The notes beneath the pieces were generated by a model, which did no database searches, was not told the origin of the DNA, and saw only the letters and a list, made by a program, of their open reading frames with translations. From positions 620,001 through 684,000 of the forward strand of contig NZ_CP035319.1 of the NCBI RefSeq assembly GCF_004328705.1: DNA of 64,000 nt, read 5' to 3'. Every line of letters starts with the position of its first letter. The stretch's first letter is position 1. A program made the position numbers and the translations under genes. This DNA is from Rhodococcus sp. ABRD24. Its GTDB lineage: Bacteria > Actinomycetota > Actinomycetes > Mycobacteriales > Mycobacteriaceae. Below, one piece after another: positions 1,648-51,541 of the stretch.

Positions 1648-3054
1648 CTAGGCGCCTAGCAAGCGCTGCGCGAGGTAGCCCTCGACCTGGTCGAGAGCGA
1701 CGCGTTCCTGCGCCATGGTGTCGCGCTCACGGACGGTGACCGCGTGGTCGTCGAGGGTGTCGAAGTCGACAGTGATGCAGAAGGGGGTACCGATCTCGTC
1801 CTGACGGCGGTAGCGACGGCCGATGGCGCCGGCGTCGTCGAACTCGATGTTCCAGTGCTGACGCAGCGTGGTCGCGAGATCCTTCGCCTTGGGCGAGAGG
1901 TCGGCGTTGCGGCTCAGCGGCAGCACCGCGGCCTTGACCGGCGCCAGGCGACGATCCAGGCGGAGCACGGTGCGGGTGTCGACGCCGCCCTTGGCATTGG
2001 GGGCCTCGTCCTCGGTGTATGCGTCGACCAGGAACGCCATGAGCGAACGCGTCAGGCCCGCCGCCGGCTCGATGACGTACGGCGTGTAGCGCTCACCGCT
2101 GGTCTGATCGAAGTAGTTCAAATCCGTGCCCGACGCCTTCGAGTGCGTCGCCAGGTCGTAGTCGGTGCGGTTGGCGATGCCCTCGAGCTCGCCCCACTCG
2201 CTGCCCTGGAAGTGGAAGCGGTACTCGATGTCGACGGTGCGCTTGGAGTAGTGCGACAGCTTCTCCTGAGCATGCTCGTACAGGCGCAGATTGTCCTTGT
2301 TGATGCCCAGGCCCGTGTACCAGTCCATCCGGTAGTCGATCCAGTACTGGTGCCACTCCTCGTCCTCGCCGGGCTTGACGAAGAACTCCATCTCCATCTG
2401 CTCGAACTCGCGCGTGCGGAAGATGAAGTTGCCGGGGGTGATCTCGTTGCGGAAGCTCTTGCCGATCTGGCCGATGCCGAACGGCGGCTTCTTGCGCGAG
2501 GTGGTGAGCACGTTCGCGAAGTTCACGAAGATGCCCTGCGCGGTCTCGGGACGCAGGTAATGCAGGCCGGTCTCGCTGTCGACCGGGCCGAGGTAGGTCT
2601 TGAGCAGGCCGGAGAACTCCTTGGGCTCGGTCCACTGCCCCTTTGTGCCACAGTCCGGGCACACGACCTCGGTCATCTGCACGGCATCGGGGTCGTCGAG
2701 CTTGTTCTTCTCGGCGTACGACTCCTGGAGATGGTCCTGGCGGTGACGCTTGTGGCAGTTGAGACACTCGACCAGCGGGTCGGAGAAGACCTCGACGTGG
2801 CCGGAGGCCTCCCATACCTGCCGGGGCAGGATCACCGACGAGTCGAGTCCGACGACGTCCTCGCGGCTGGTGACCATGTTGCGCCACCACTGCTTCTTGA
2901 TGTTCTCCTTGAGCTCGACGCCGAGCGGACCGTAGTCCCAGGCCGACTTGGTACCGCCGTAGATCTCACCGCATGGGTAGACGAGCCCCCGGCGCTTGGC
3001 GAGGTTGGCGACGGTATCGATCTTGGACTTGGGTGCCACTTGGGTGCTCTCCAT
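1648..3054 (-). CDS. glyS: Glycyl-tRNA synthetase (alpha2, class II)
   Basis: Charges tRNA-Gly with glycine in the cytoplasm. The 468-residue product has the expected length for the homodimeric bacterial enzyme. Visible features are a two-CxxC zinc-like module (CLNCHKRH ... CPDCGTKG), class II motif 2 ([19 protein letters not shown]), motif 3 near [14 protein letters not shown], and a C-terminal anticodon-binding domain. The frame extends 29 codons further upstream, but the ATG at 3054 ([11 protein letters not shown]) fits the family N-terminus; the extra residues look non-coding and lie over the divergent promoter region. The gene is divergent from smtB, the same arrangement as Rv2357c/Rv2358 in M. 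tuberculosis. Confidence 0.96.
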
Positions 3055-3134
3055 CTGGGTAATAGATGCGTGGTTCACGTGCGGTTTTCGCCAGTCCAGA
3101 CTATCTGTAGGCGCGCCGCCGTCCACGCACACGG

Positions 3135-3172
3135 TTGACATGCGTATTCGTGCATATCAAAATGGAATTGAT
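3135..3172 (+). promoter_or_regulatory. smtB promoter with candidate SmtB operator
   Basis: A consensus -35 TTGACA (3135-3140) and a -10 CAAAAT (3158-3163) are separated by 17 bp. A small dyad, ATGC-N8-GCAT (3140-3155), fills the spacer and a second one, ATCAA-N7-TTGAT (3156-3172), covers the -10. ArsR/SmtB repressors often bind dyads in this position. The dyads are short, so the operator assignment is an inference. Confidence 0.5.
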
Positions 3173-3226
3173 TTGCAATAAGGTGGGATCGACCACCCGA
3201 CGGGACCGCACGTGAGGAGCCACACC

Positions 3227-3616
3227 GTGAGTGTTGCCGATGCCGGCGACCTGCACGCCGAGTCACGAGCAGAATCGAGCGCCGACCTGCACGACCATGG
3301 CCCGTGCGCCGAAACCCCGGCCGCACCGTTGCCACCCAAGGAGACACTGACCGCGGCAGGTGAAATTCTGCGCGCCCTCGCCGCGCCGGTCCGGATCGCG
3401 ATCGTGCTGCAGCTGCGCGAATCGCAGCGCTGCGTCCACGAACTGGTAGGCGCACTCGGCGTCACCCAACCGCTCATCAGCCAGCACCTGCGAGTACTCA
3501 AGGCCGCCGGCGTGGTGCGCGGCGAGCGCAACGGCCGGGAAGTGATGTACCGACTGGTCGACGACCACCTCGCCCATATCGTCATCGACGCTGTCGCCCA
3601 CGCGGAGGAATCATGA
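3227..3616 (+). CDS. smtB: ArsR/SmtB-family zinc-responsive repressor
   Basis: Winged-helix repressor of about 129 residues, predicted to release DNA on binding zinc. The N-terminus carries HDHGPC, the HTH region includes HELVGALGVTQPLISQHLRVLKAAGVV, and the last helix reads DDHLAHIVIDAVAHAEE. That helix reproduces the alpha-5 metal site spacing of SmtB (Asp-x-His, then His eleven residues on, then Glu three further). A GTG at 3212 is also in frame, but the GTG at 3227 has an AGGAG seven bases upstream and is preferred. The gene lies upstream of zur and divergent from glyS, as in mycobacteria. Its stop codon overlaps the ATG of the first of three mini-ORFs leading to zur. Confidence 0.88.
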   Translation: MSVADAGDLHAESRAESSADLHDHGPCAETPAAPLPPKETLTAAGEILRALAAPVRIAIVLQLRESQRCVHELVGALGVTQPLISQHLRVLKAAGVVRGERNGREVMYRLVDDHLAHIVIDAVAHAEES

Positions 3617-3690
3617 CGGAGCTTGTCACGGAGGAAGCATGACGGAGCTTGTCACGGAGGAAGCATGACGGAGCTTGTCACGGAGGAAGC
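3613..3690 (+). repeat. 26-bp tandem repeat (x3) encoding chained mini-ORFs
   Basis: Three identical 26-bp units begin at 3613, 3639 and 3665, and the zur start at 3691 repeats the first nine bases. Each unit contains an ATG and a GGAGGA Shine-Dalgarno. Each ATG opens a nine-codon ORF reading MTELVTEEA, whose TGA overlaps the next ATG as ATGA. The smtB stop overlaps the first ATG in the same way, and the third mini-ORF stop overlaps the zur ATG. Ribosomes leaving smtB could therefore be handed on through three tiny ORFs to zur. Most likely the original smtB-zur overlap was duplicated. Confidence 0.93.
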
Positions 3691-4128
3691 ATGACGGAGA
3701 ACGTGGTGGACAGGACCGAGCGGCGCGGGCGCGCCGTGGTGGGCGTGCGCTCCACCAAGCAGCGCAGCGCGATCTCCGCCCTGCTCGACGAGATCAGCGA
3801 GTTCCGTTCTGCTCAGGAACTGCACGACGAACTCCGTAGGCGCGGCGAGGGCATCGGCCTCACCACCGTCTACCGGACGCTCCAGGCCCTCGCCGACGCC
3901 GGCACCGTGGACGTACTCCGCACCGACACCGGCGAATCGGTGTACCGGCGCTGTTCGAGTGGACACCATCACCATCTCGTGTGCCGCAGCTGCGGATTCA
4001 CCGTCGAAGTGGATGGTCCCGCAGTCGAGCAGTGGTCACAGACCATCGCCGACAGCAACGGCTTCACCGACGTCAGCCACACCCTGGAGATCTTCGGCAC
4101 CTGCCGCGATTGCGCCGAGGCGCAGTAG
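3691..4128 (+). CDS. zur: Zinc uptake regulator Zur (FurB)
   Basis: Fur-family repressor of 145 residues, predicted to shut off zinc acquisition genes when zinc is plentiful. The winged helix includes AQELHDELRRRGEGIGLTTV. The C-terminal domain holds HHHHLVCRSCGF and FGTCRDC, that is, two CxxC structural zinc motifs and the His cluster typical of mycobacterial FurB. The ATG at 3691 is the last in the chain of repeats; a TTG at 3649 is in frame but would read through the repeats and is unlikely. Co-transcribed with smtB, so zinc-bound SmtB relief would drive zur expression, as established in M. tuberculosis. Confidence 0.93.
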   Translation: MTENVVDRTERRGRAVVGVRSTKQRSAISALLDEISEFRSAQELHDELRRRGEGIGLTTVYRTLQALADAGTVDVLRTDTGESVYRRCSSGHHHHLVCRSCGFTVEVDGPAVEQWSQTIADSNGFTDVSHTLEIFGTCRDCAEAQ

Positions 4129-4129
4129 T

Positions 4130-4157
4130 TCGGAGTCGGCGGTCGGCCGAACTCCGA
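4130..4157. terminator. Hairpin terminator after zur
   Basis: Stem TCGGAGT-CGGC paired with GCCG-(A)-ACTCCGA around a short loop, located directly after the zur stop and before the converging YbjN-like gene. No T-run follows. Confidence 0.55.
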
Positions 4158-4224
4158 GCACGTTCTGTACAAGATGAAGCCGGTGCTGATCGATGGTCGC
4201 CGGCCGACACGCGGTGCGGACCCG

Positions 4225-4620
4225 CTACGCCAGCAGGCCCTTCCGAGCCTCCTCGGCGCCCGACAGCACCAGCAGCAGCATCGTGGTGAGCGGCGCGCCC
4301 GACAGACCCGTCGCCGGAAACGTGTAGCGCAGCACCATATCCGCGAGCTTGCCACGCGTAATGACACTGATGGACCCGAACTGCAGTTGCGCATTCCGCT
4401 CGGCCACCCGCTTGTGCAACGCGGGCTTGATCGTCCGATCCCACGCCAACACGCCGGTCAGCGACAGCACATCGAGTCCCTCGGCGAGCGTTACCGCCCG
4501 CAGTGAACACAGCGCGCCGCCGTACTCGAACCGCAGTGAGCCGTCGGCGTCCGAATCGACGGTCACGAAACTCCCGAGCGCCTCACGCGCCCGACCCTGC
4601 AACGCCTCGGCGGAATCCAT
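4225..4620 (-). CDS. YbjN-like conserved protein
   Basis: A 131-residue soluble protein beginning MDSAEALQGRAREALGSF. It has the mixed alpha/beta pattern of the YbjN / type III secretion chaperone-like fold and corresponds in position to Rv2360c downstream of uppS. No catalytic motif is visible and the function is unknown. The ATG at 4620 lies two bases after the uppS stop, so the two are almost certainly co-transcribed and probably translationally coupled. Confidence 0.75.
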   Translation of the reverse strand: MDSAEALQGRAREALGSFVTVDSDADGSLRFEYGGALCSLRAVTLAEGLDVLSLTGVLAWDRTIKPALHKRVAERNAQLQFGSISVITRGKLADMVLRYTFPATGLSGAPLTTMLLLVLSGAEEARKGLLA

Positions 4621-35305: not shown

Positions 35306-37321
35306 ATGACGTCCTCGACCGAGCAGTCCGTCACCACGCAGTCCGACACCACGCAGTCCGACACCACGCAGTCCGACACCACGCCCCTGGGCGATTCCGA
35401 CGAGGTGGCGCCGGAATACCGCAGGGTCTTTCCCCCGATCGACGACTATGCGTTCCTGTCCGATTGCGAGTCGAACTGTCTGGTGGCGCGGAACGGGTCG
35501 GTCGAATGGATGTGCATCCCTCGCCCCGACTCCCCCAGCGTGTTCGGCGCAATCCTCGATCGCAGTGCCGGGCACTTCCGGATCGGGCCCTACGGGCAGA
35601 ACGTGCCGGCCGCACGCCGATATCTGCCCGGCGGTCTGATCCTCGAAACCACGTGGCAGACACAGACCGGCTGGCTGATCGTGCGCGACGCCCTCGTGAT
35701 GGGTAGGTGGCACGCGAACGAGCAACGTTCCCCCACTCGTCGCCGGACACCGTCGGACTGGGACGCCGAGCACATCCTGCTGCGCACCGTGAAGTGTGTG
35801 AGCGGCACGGTCGAGGTGGAGATGAGTTGCGAGCCCGCCTTCGACTACCACCGAGTCCCTGCTCACTGGGAGTACACGGGCAAGGTGTACGAGGAAGCAA
35901 CCGCGACGTGCCGGACCGCGACGCCGGGCGAGCACCCCACCCTGCGGCTCACCTCGAACCTGCGCCTGGGGCTCGAGGGCCGTGAGGCCCGCGCACGCAC
36001 CCGCATGGTGGAGGGCGACAACGCGTTCGTAGCACTGTCGTGGTCGGACCTGCCGGCACCGCAGACGTTCGCCGAGGCCGCCGACCGGATGTGGCAGACC
36101 ACCGAGTGCTGGCGCCAGTGGGTGACGATCGGACACTTCCCGGACCATCCGTGGCGCGGACACCTGCAGCGCAGTGCCCTCACCCTCAAGGGTCTGACGT
36201 ACGCGCCAACCGGGGCTCTGCTCGCCGCCCCCACCACTTCGCTCCCGGAAACACCTGGCGGCGCCCGCAACTGGGATTACCGCTACGCGTGGGTCCGCGA
36301 CTCGACGTTCGCCCTGTGGGGCCTGTACACGCTGGGACTGGACCGTGAAGCCAACGACTTCTTCTCGTTCATCTTCGACTCGGCCCAGTCCGACGACGGC
36401 CACCCGACGCCACTGCAGGTGATGTACGGGGTCGGCGGCGAGCACACGCTCGAAGAGACGGAACTGAACCACCTGTCGGGCTACGACGGTGCGCGTCCCG
36501 TGCGGATCGGCAACGGCGCCTACAGCCAGAACCAGCACGACATCTGGGGCACGATGCTCGACTCGGTGTACCTGCACGTGCGGTCCCGGGACCAGGTGCC
36601 GGAAACACTGTGGCCGTTGCTCAAGCGGCAGGTCGAGGAGGTCGTCAAGCACTGGCGCCAACCCGACCGCGGGATCTGGGAGGTACGCGGGGAACCGCAG
36701 CACTTCACGTCGTCGAAGATCATGTGCTGGGTGGCGCTCGACCGCGGTTCCCGGCTCGCGGCCCTGCACGGCGAGAAGAGTTATGCGACGCAATGGGCCG
36801 AGATCGCCGACGACGTCAAGGCCGATGTCCTGGCGCACGGTGTCGACTCGCGTGGTGTTTTCACACAGCGTTACGGGCACCCATCGCTCGACGCCTCGCT
36901 GCTGCTGGCACCGCTGCTGCGATTCCTGCCCGCCGACGATCCGCGAATCCGCGCGACCGTCCTGGCGATCGCGGACGAGCTCACCGAGGACGGACTCGTG
37001 CTCCGCTACAAGGTGGAATCGACCGACGACGGGATCTCGGGCAAGGAGGGCACGTTCACGATCTGCTCGTTCTGGCTGGTCTCGGCGCTCGTCGAGATCG
37101 GCGAACTGCCACGGGCCAAGCAGTTGTGCGATCGACTGCTCGGGTTCGCCAGCCCACTCGATCTTTATGCCGAGGAGATCGACCCCAAGACGGGCAGGCA
37201 CCTCGGCAACTTCCCGCAAGCATTCACCCACCTGGCGCTCATCAACGCGGTCGTACACGTCATCCGGGCCGAGGAGGCGGGCGACACCGGAACATTCCAG
37301 CCCGCGCACGGACCCGCCTGA
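35306..37321 (+). CDS. Glycoside hydrolase family 15 protein (trehalase-type)
   Basis: 671 residues. After a repetitive N-terminus, an N-terminal beta-sandwich (DDYAFLSDCESNCLVARNGSVEWMCIP) precedes the (alpha/alpha)6 barrel. Barrel blocks include GGARNWDYRYAWVRDSTFALW, the general-acid region QNQHDIWGTML ... DRGIWEVRGEP, and the base region DPKTGRHLGNFPQAFTHLALIN. Actinobacterial members of this GH15 subgroup (Rv2402) hydrolyse trehalose; glucoamylase activity is the alternative. Cytosolic, with no signal peptide. The first 30 residues contain QSDTT repeats from a DNA tandem repeat and are probably disordered. Confidence 0.88.
   Translation: MTSSTEQSVTTQSDTTQSDTTQSDTTPLGDSDEVAPEYRRVFPPIDDYAFLSDCESNCLVARNGSVEWMCIPRPDSPSVFGAILDRSAGHFRIGPYGQNVPAARRYLPGGLILETTWQTQTGWLIVRDALVMGRWHANEQRSPTRRRTPSDWDAEHILLRTVKCVSGTVEVEMSCEPAFDYHRVPAHWEYTGKVYEEATATCRTATPGEHPTLRLTSNLRLGLEGREARARTRMVEGDNAFVALSWSDLPAPQTFAEAADRMWQTTECWRQWVTIGHFPDHPWRGHLQRSALTLKGLTYAPTGALLAAPTTSLPETPGGARNWDYRYAWVRDSTFALWGLYTLGLDREANDFFSFIFDSAQSDDGHPTPLQVMYGVGGEHTLEETELNHLSGYDGARPVRIGNGAYSQNQHDIWGTMLDSVYLHVRSRDQVPETLWPLLKRQVEEVVKHWRQPDRGIWEVRGEPQHFTSSKIMCWVALDRGSRLAALHGEKSYATQWAEIADDVKADVLAHGVDSRGVFTQRYGHPSLDASLLLAPLLRFLPADDPRIRATVLAIADELTEDGLVLRYKVESTDDGISGKEGTFTICSFWLVSALVEIGELPRAKQLCDRLLGFASPLDLYAEEIDPKTGRHLGNFPQAFTHLALINAVVHVIRAEEAGDTGTFQPAHGPA
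35321..35380 (+). repeat. 15-bp in-frame tandem repeat near the GH15 start
   Basis: Three exact copies of ACGCAGTCCGACACC (35336-35380) follow one degenerate copy (35321-35335). They encode TQSDT-type pentapeptides at residues 6-25. The unit is a multiple of three, so changes in copy number would only alter N-terminal length. Confidence 0.9.
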
Positions 37322-50668: not shown

Positions 50669-51520
50669 CTACCCTATTTCGAGCTCGTCGCGTGCCGCAC
50701 TGCGACGGGCGATCTCGACCGCGGCGATCATCGCGGCGGCGACTTCCTCGTGGGCCTCCCAGCCCCAGTGGATGCCATCCGGGTTCGCCCGGTCGGAGAA
50801 GATGTTCTCCCGTACCGCGGCCGCGAGATCGACCATCGGAACATGCTTCTCGGTCGACCACGCCTCGAGCGCCCGCACCGCAGGCTCCCGGCCCGAGTGG
50901 ACCTGCCCGTACGCATCGCAACGGTGAACCGACGGATACGTGCCGATCACCGGCAGATCGGGGCGGATCGCCGCCAACGCGTCCCGGCAACTCTCCAGAT
51001 ACTCGACCGACAGTCTGGGCGGCAGCGCCACCGGCCTGCCCAACTTGGACAACCGCGGCTGCAGCCACTGGTAGCCGGACCGTACGATGCGGCGCAGCAC
51101 CGGCGGCCGGATGTACCGCAGCTGCTCACGCAGCGCGGTCGGCAGCGGGGACGGCAACGAATCCATCCCGCCCACCGCGAAGACGACGGCACCGGCGTGC
51201 GGAACGGACGCCCATACCCGCGGATCCTGCGTCAGCGCCCACCATGCATCCCGGCTGGTCCAGCCGATACGGGCCACCAGCTCCACTCGCCAGCCCAGCT
51301 CGCGGGCGACCAGATTGGGCCAGATCCTCGGATGATCCGCCGGCAGTCCCCCCTTGGGACCGTAGTACGAGAGCGAATCGGCCAGCACCAGTAGGACCGG
51401 CGCCCCGTCCGTCCGATCGACGGCACCGCCGTCCAGCGTCCGATCGACGGCACCGCCGTCCAGCATCCGATCGACGGCACCGCCGTCCAGCGTCCGATCG
51501 ACGGCACCGCCGTCCAGCAT
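50669..51520 (-). CDS. octT: Diglucosylglycerate octanoyltransferase, SGNH fold
   Basis: Transfers octanoate to diglucosylglycerate in methylglucose lipopolysaccharide synthesis (function established for the mycobacterial enzyme Rv2418c). The SGNH-type motifs are [17 protein letters not shown] (nucleophile Ser), [11 protein letters not shown], and the C-terminal catalytic pair NPDGIHW. The ATG at 51520 gives 283 residues; the first 35 are repeats of LDGGAVDR(T/M) from the DNA repeat. ATG codons recur inside the repeat (51466 is an alternative), so the start is ambiguous. Between gpgP and degV in one operon. Confidence 0.86.
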
Positions 51521-51541
51521 CCGATCGACGGCACCGCCGTC
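51411..51541 (-). repeat. 27-bp tandem repeat at the octT start
   Basis: Almost five head-to-tail copies of a 27-bp unit (GTCCGATCGACGGCACCGCC and seven more bases) start at 51411, 51438, 51465, 51492 and 51519. They are identical except that the first base is G, G, A, G, A; the A copies create the ATG codons on the coding strand. The last copy runs into the gpgP stop. Each unit adds nine residues in frame. Confidence 0.93.

Follow-up and report, generated by a model that had tools for sequence, protein, structure and literature searches.

The junction between smtB and zur in Rhodococcus sp. ABRD24 raises the question of how three identical nine-codon reading frames came to lie between two genes, and of what they do to the translation of the second one. 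Overlapping stop and start codons are common, and exact tandem repeats are prone to slippage; here the two occur together. The locus lies in a window of 64,000 nucleotides (positions 620,001 to 684,000 of contig NZ_CP035319.1, forward strand), in a host genome that is one contig of 5,098,030 bases. The features on which the argument depends are the following, numbered from the first letter of the window.

3227..3616, + strand: smtB-type gene (ArsR family; PF01022, 53.4 bits; NF033788, 87.5 bits, cut-off 55)
3604..3608, + strand: GGAGG Shine-Dalgarno (SD) sequence for mini-ORF 1, within the smtB tail (from sequence and pairing energy)
3613..3642, + strand: mini-ORF 1, MTELVTEEA and stop, its start overlapping the smtB stop; unit 1 is 3613-3638
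3639..3668, + strand: mini-ORF 2, MTELVTEEA and stop; unit 2 is 3639-3664, SD at 3630-3634
3665..3694, + strand: mini-ORF 3, MTELVTEEA and stop, the stop lying in the zur start; unit 3 is 3665-3690, SD at 3656-3660
3682..3686, + strand: GGAGG SD for zur, within unit 3 (from sequence and pairing energy)
3691..4128, + strand: zur-type gene (Fur family; PF01475, 118.3 bits; start placed as in the congeners with an ATGA overlap)

Results

Direct reading confirmed the central claim of the original prediction, namely that smtB and zur are separated by three exact 26-bp units (ATG ACG GAG CTT GTC ACG GAG GAA GCA TGA, the stop running into the next unit) that each encode MTELVTEEA and stop in the next ATG. 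The smtB stop (TGA, 3614-3616) and the zur start (ATG, 3691) join the chain in the same way, and four ATGA overlaps (3613, 3639, 3665 and 3691) thus stand in series. Each unit comprises a start codon, nine codons, an SD that serves the following start and a stop codon that overlaps it, and zur retains an SD and an ATG like those of the congeners. GGAGG is found 4 nt upstream of all four ATGs (3604-3608, 3630-3634, 3656-3660 and 3682-3686), and the computed pairing energy is equal at the four sites (-9.5 kcal/mol, with a 12-mer that we take to be the anti-SD sequence). The SD that had been assigned to every unit does serve each start, but it sits in the preceding unit or, for the first start, in the smtB tail; similarly, the range 3608..3694 covers the units, but the first SD begins just outside it, at 3604. 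Tandem Repeats Finder described 3603-3699 as 3.7 copies of period 26 with 98% matches and a score of 187, the second highest among 25 rows, and the repeat is not a product of chance. Because the reading frame shifts from one unit to the next, every stop falls inside the following start, and the number of units can change without breaking the chain, as had been anticipated. The proviso then attached, that this holds in spite of 26 not being divisible by three, had the matter reversed, since a length of 2 mod 3 is precisely what makes the chain work.

For smtB, GTG 3227 was preferred as the start for its SD (energy -8.5), GTG 3212 being an alternative in a frame that is open from 3212. The zur-type gene reached the cut-off of no NCBIfam model, and the name Zur, to be taken as putative, rests on Fur-family membership, on the smtB neighbour and on homologue names; among the 120 homologues listed some are named Zur or zinc uptake regulation protein, and the closest Zur among them is 92% identical. 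An N-terminally extended Zur starting at TTG 3649 was also considered, as the frame is open, yet the best relatives inspected for the long query (P0001, P0002 and P0004) start at MTEN and we judged it unlikely. The odd-looking relative P0003 in that comparison is a different, longer protein.

We then compared the junction with its counterparts in relatives. Of 151 genomes, the present one among them, 149 gave a Zur match, and parsing of the smtB/zur junction took in 110 loci, with 2 unparsed, neither from a congener. All 13 congeners presented a direct smtB/zur overlap without units (ATGA in 11, GTGA in 2); the present array was the only tandem repeat in 99 distinct junction stretches, and a search for the unit that allowed up to three mismatches found it in only 1 of 14 genus genomes, with three matches, all at the smtB-zur junction. 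This absence from the 13 congeners indicates that the array is lineage-specific, and the copy-number comparison that had been proposed across related strains did reveal a difference, at the level of species: three units here versus none in any congener. The zur gene itself is 80.2-87.8% identical in nucleotides to those of the 11 ATGA congeners, and the identity of the units in the face of this 12-20% difference implies that the expansion is recent or that the units have been kept uniform; on these comparisons the array appears to be young. Its source is hinted at by zur codon 2, where this genome and the units have ACG and all 11 ATGA congeners have ACC, suggesting that the units were copied from the zur start of their own lineage. 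In composition, the unit is made up of a head resembling zur (ATGACGGAG) and a tail resembling smtB (CGGAGGAAGC, the form seen in congeners G007, G010 and G012), with CTTGTC in the middle. An origin by microhomology, through CGGA at a spacing of 26 nt, is a possibility; that arrangement was found in only two of the 13 congeners (G007 and G011).

How surprising a chain of this kind should be was estimated by simulation, in which each 10-60-bp segment across the overlap was duplicated for the 11 congeners with an ATGA junction. A self-terminating mini-ORF resulted from 5,981 of 17,952 duplications, including 99.9% of those of length 2 mod 3 and all 253 of those of length 26. As one third of such duplications yield a chain, no special design is needed, and, given a repeat, the self-terminating chain is only mildly surprising.

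With regard to transcription, the following match was the only promoter-like one in 3000-4300 (1 found against a mean of 0.3 in shuffles).

3135..3163, + strand: promoter-like match TTGACA-17-CAAAAT, upstream of smtB (consensus match only)

In agreement with a single transcript, znr-zur of Corynebacterium glutamicum acts as an operon, and gfp was expressed there only with the region upstream of znr and not with the intergenic piece (PMC2823685). These data bear on the reading in which the array is an inert passenger or acts at the level of transcription, zur being served mainly by its own SD or its own transcript while the mini-ORFs stay idle. The zur SD is indeed intact and as strong as the other three; the array RNA (148 nt) showed no structure in excess of its shuffled versions (z +0.75), z ranged from -1.43 to +1.54 over four shorter segments (one taken from G007), and 3590-3720 held no pair of inverted repeats of at least 8 bp. 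Moreover, mycobacterial interspersed repetitive units (MIRUs) can carry promoter activity and direct transcription of the gene that follows them (PMC4213456); a promoter within the smtB-zur repeats is thus conceivable. However, a scan for one promoter type found neither a sigma-70-type promoter-like site nor a terminator-like site between smtB and zur, and all 13 congeners retain a 4-nt overlap, suggesting that coupling is important. We consider idle mini-ORFs, or a role at the level of transcription, very improbable.

Other junctions of the same genome were examined with a tandem-array scan covering 2.864 Mb (56%), which found 112 arrays. Besides smtB-zur, three of them repeat a stop/start overlap between inspected ORFs, with units of 17, 23 and 36 bp (genome coordinates).

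4708128-4708182: chain of 17-bp units; flanking genes: metallophosphoesterase and PptT-type (the latter scoring over the NF042923 cut-off)
307553-307603: 23-bp duplication spanning a GTGA overlap; flanking genes: an ORF lacking a Pfam match and a helix-turn-helix gene
4431032-4431101: 36-bp duplication at the GTGA junction of acyl-CoA dehydrogenase and enoyl-CoA hydratase genes

The pptT-type chain consists of a GTGA followed by three TTGA, the last one being the gene start, and its mini-ORFs read VRETLG, LREKLG and LREKLG, each with a stop. No chain was seen in the 110 nt upstream of the gene in any of the 13 congeners, where the upstream stop, as judged by eye, mostly lies a short distance before the start without overlap; this array is therefore something other than a simply copied overlap. 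In G011 the intergenic stretch directly before the pptT-type gene has a tandem duplication of its own, with two copies of TTGTCCCGGAAACACAG (by eye). At 307,553 the mini-ORF (VTARVADQ and stop) joins the head of the downstream ORF to the tail of the upstream one, and for this gene only weak matches were obtained, in three of the 13 congeners. The 36-bp duplication gives in-frame VSEANGAIQRSG repeats plus alternative starts. Within the window, 51410-51541 holds a 27-bp array of 4.9 copies that does not duplicate a stop/start overlap; read on the minus strand, it comes after a phosphoglycerate mutase-like ORF (by eye) and forms in-frame repeats close to where the following ORF starts. A 15-bp array of 4.1 copies lies at 35323-35384.

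Beyond this genome, the strict pattern of three GGAGG-N4-ATGA modules matched 1 of 401 family genomes, the present one, and the exact form is thus rare. Looser patterns with SD spacings N6, N8, N5 and N7 matched 3, 8, 7 and 13 of 121 genomes, respectively, and the reversed control patterns 1, 2, 3 and 1; since the controls match as well, a triple match alone proves little and the junction context decides. Among 12 places inspected, 10 were at two-ORF junctions, that in G152 was not and one in G018 (33 bp) was unclear. The arrays were these.

G023, L276 660-804: five 29-bp GTGA-linked mini-ORFs, VIARRPGRPQ and stop, between a DUF7782 gene and dtd; the last unit has one mismatch
G023: three self-terminating 29-bp units before opcA; the upstream gene, presumably zwf, ends RTWRRP
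G018 and G158: self-terminating 26-bp units after ruvX
G175: self-terminating 26-bp units; the gene after them has a weak likeness to YbaB (under the Pfam cut-off)
G050: two self-terminating 23-bp units, from an ABC ATPase gene to a CbiQ-like gene
G069: self-terminating 35-bp units, downstream gene without Pfam match
G012: in-frame 30-bp units before an F420 ligase gene
G090: in-frame 24-bp units after a permease gene
G175: in-frame 30/36/30 units, short-chain dehydrogenase

G023 is the single genome examined from its genus. In the ruvX arrays a base change is common to both units within each species, and there is an older, diverged copy spaced 25 nt. Arrays of GGAGCTCGACCRTGA were seen in one genus, with periods of 35 bp (G069), 36 bp (G051, G022 and G173) and, by eye, 38 bp (G160). 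A dispersed tandem repeat, GGAGCYTGCGGARTGA, with periods of about 30-38 bp and seen only as pattern matches, occurred in G183 (nine places on seven contigs), G011, G031, G048, G058 and G067.

When 13 junction arrays were sorted by period, nine were 2 mod 3, four were 0 mod 3 and none was 1 mod 3; periods of 0 mod 3 give extra in-frame starts and those of 2 mod 3 a self-terminating relay. Under equal thirds, the probability of finding no class 1 array is 0.005 (0.008 without the discovery locus) and that of the class 2 excess 0.009 (0.019 without it), in an exploratory tally with post hoc statistics, arrays from two search designs and rows left out. The ruvX array of G018 and G158 entered by its 26-bp units. 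The rows left out were a 30-bp match at 2,090,773, genome matches whose unit does not duplicate the overlap, and the window array at 51410-51541; the 23-bp array of G152 (not at a junction); the 33-bp array of G018 (no clear downstream gene) with its likely counterparts in G083 (33) and G158 (34, class 1); G022, G051 and G173 (36) and G160 (38 by eye); the GGAGCYTGCGGARTGA family, including 34-bp class 1 arrays, for instance in G183; and matches in G004, G066, G081 and G167 that by eye looked irregular or like coding sequence. The tally is a lead, short of proof.

Discussion

We believe, with a probability of roughly 0.6, that the array is a young, lineage-specific minisatellite that arose by tandem duplication of the smtB/zur coupling junction and that would keep termination-reinitiation working at any copy number. 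A single mRNA would run from upstream of smtB through zur; a ribosome ending smtB at the ATGA would restart at mini-ORF 1, end, restart again and so proceed to zur, and each SD could also load new ribosomes. With a unit length of 2 mod 3, a terminating ribosome would precede zur whatever the number of units, and expansion would be tolerated for that reason, while other unit lengths would break the coupling or extend Zur. The net effect is likely to be modest: a partial uncoupling of Zur from SmtB translation, plus three extra 9-residue peptides. In Mycobacterium tuberculosis the smtB homologue is a repressor of the operon at low zinc (PMC2823685), and such an uncoupling would therefore shift the Zur:SmtB ratio. 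Experimental work lends support to coupling at overlapping pairs, seen in 9 of 9 tested in Haloferax volcanii and in all but one in Escherichia coli, although E. coli menDH and bioBF initiate partly or wholly de novo despite their overlap (PMC6728339), and restart by the same ribosome is still debated (PMC12548453). The strong SD at zur would likewise allow direct initiation without a relay, and this counts against our explanation.

To see what extra units might do, we used a flux model with a restart probability p and new initiation i, in 8 parameter sets. Extra units loosened the tie of zur to smtB translation in every set; with p 0.5, i 0.02 and a tenfold change of input, three units took the dependence from 7.4-fold to 2.3-fold. 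Predicted zur output fell in six sets, stayed flat in one and rose in one. This last result bears on the proposal that the additional SD-start modules gather ribosomes and raise Zur translation. Four equal SDs stand at the junction, and in E. coli short nonsense ORFs with an internal strong ribosome binding site by their stop boosted the gene after them by as much as 20-fold (PMC13255528); but output rose with unit number in only one of the eight sets, and at a spacing of 26 nt initiating ribosomes would probably hinder each other. A loading effect therefore seems to us highly improbable. The synthetic ORFs of that work resemble the array in that a short ORF with a ribosome binding site by its stop drives the next gene, and differ from it in being engineered, single-copy and in E. 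coli.

The output/input relation of the model varies with copy number, as would be expected of a selected rheostat, a contingency-type switch in which copy number within the species sets the Zur:SmtB ratio and hence zinc uptake. A parallel is offered by the rnc-fpg1 VNTR of M. tuberculosis, where, in one clade, two genes are likewise separated by an array of repeats (279-358 bp versus 1-54 bp in the other species listed) whose length is related to expression; longer repeats before fpg1 went with more mRNA, in modest fold changes (PMC2734929). That effect, however, was measured on mRNA and with another repeat type, a complex of 37/18/26/16-bp repeats for which the available text of the source notes no start/stop chain (PMC2734929). 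In addition, the array is absent from all 13 congeners, and similar chains precede unrelated genes (pptT-type and dtd), which fits tolerated duplication equally well. We regard a selected switch as quite unlikely, and think it likelier that the array is tolerated than that it was selected to tune expression.

Among known systems, the MIRUs (e.g. senX3-regX3) come nearest; they are likewise short repeated ORFs between operon genes, with a -4 nt coupling to the next gene (PMC12548453), and this geometry of a repeat ORF in 4-nt start/stop overlap with a flanking gene is present in the smtB-zur array. MIRU lengths of 77 and 53 bp (PMC4213456) are also 2 mod 3, like the 26-bp unit. Nevertheless, MIRUs are units of 40-100 bp in 41 places of H37Rv (PMC2734929), a range outside which the present unit falls, and it occupies one place; and whereas MIRUs are apparently mobile (PMC12548453), this unit resembles the local zur head and smtB tail. 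On the best reading, the array functions in the manner of a MIRU yet is of local origin, and its length and lack of dispersal set it apart from MIRUs proper. With termination-reinitiation pairs it has in common the 4 shared nucleotides, conserved as an overlap in relatives, and the SD in the upstream ORF (PMC6728339), although these pairs normally have one overlap and the array four in series; its head-to-tail, near-identical units are those of a minisatellite. No tandem stop/start chain other than MIRUs was found in the titles and abstract openings of the open-licence PMC papers retrieved, which is weak evidence of absence.

A broader interpretation would make stop-start minisatellites a recurrent class in the family: junction duplications filtered by frame (2 or 0 mod 3 surviving, 1 disfavoured) would serve as evolvable couplers, with MIRUs as one mobile offshoot. 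The frame tally points that way, but the class 1 arrays among the rows left out, together with the reversed-control matches, weaken the case, and we think this interpretation rather unlikely, to be held only tentatively.

Conclusions

If stop-start minisatellites were such a recurrent class, a lineage could adjust, with no need of a new promoter, how closely a gene is coupled to its neighbour in the operon. The junctions that nature provides, with 0, 1, 2, 3 and 5 relay steps, make up a ready test of serial restart, in which, if it is real, each relay step would multiply output by the restart probability. The frame argument gives a simple reason for the growth of repeats at gene junctions, and it points to sites where copy number may vary before regulators such as Zur.
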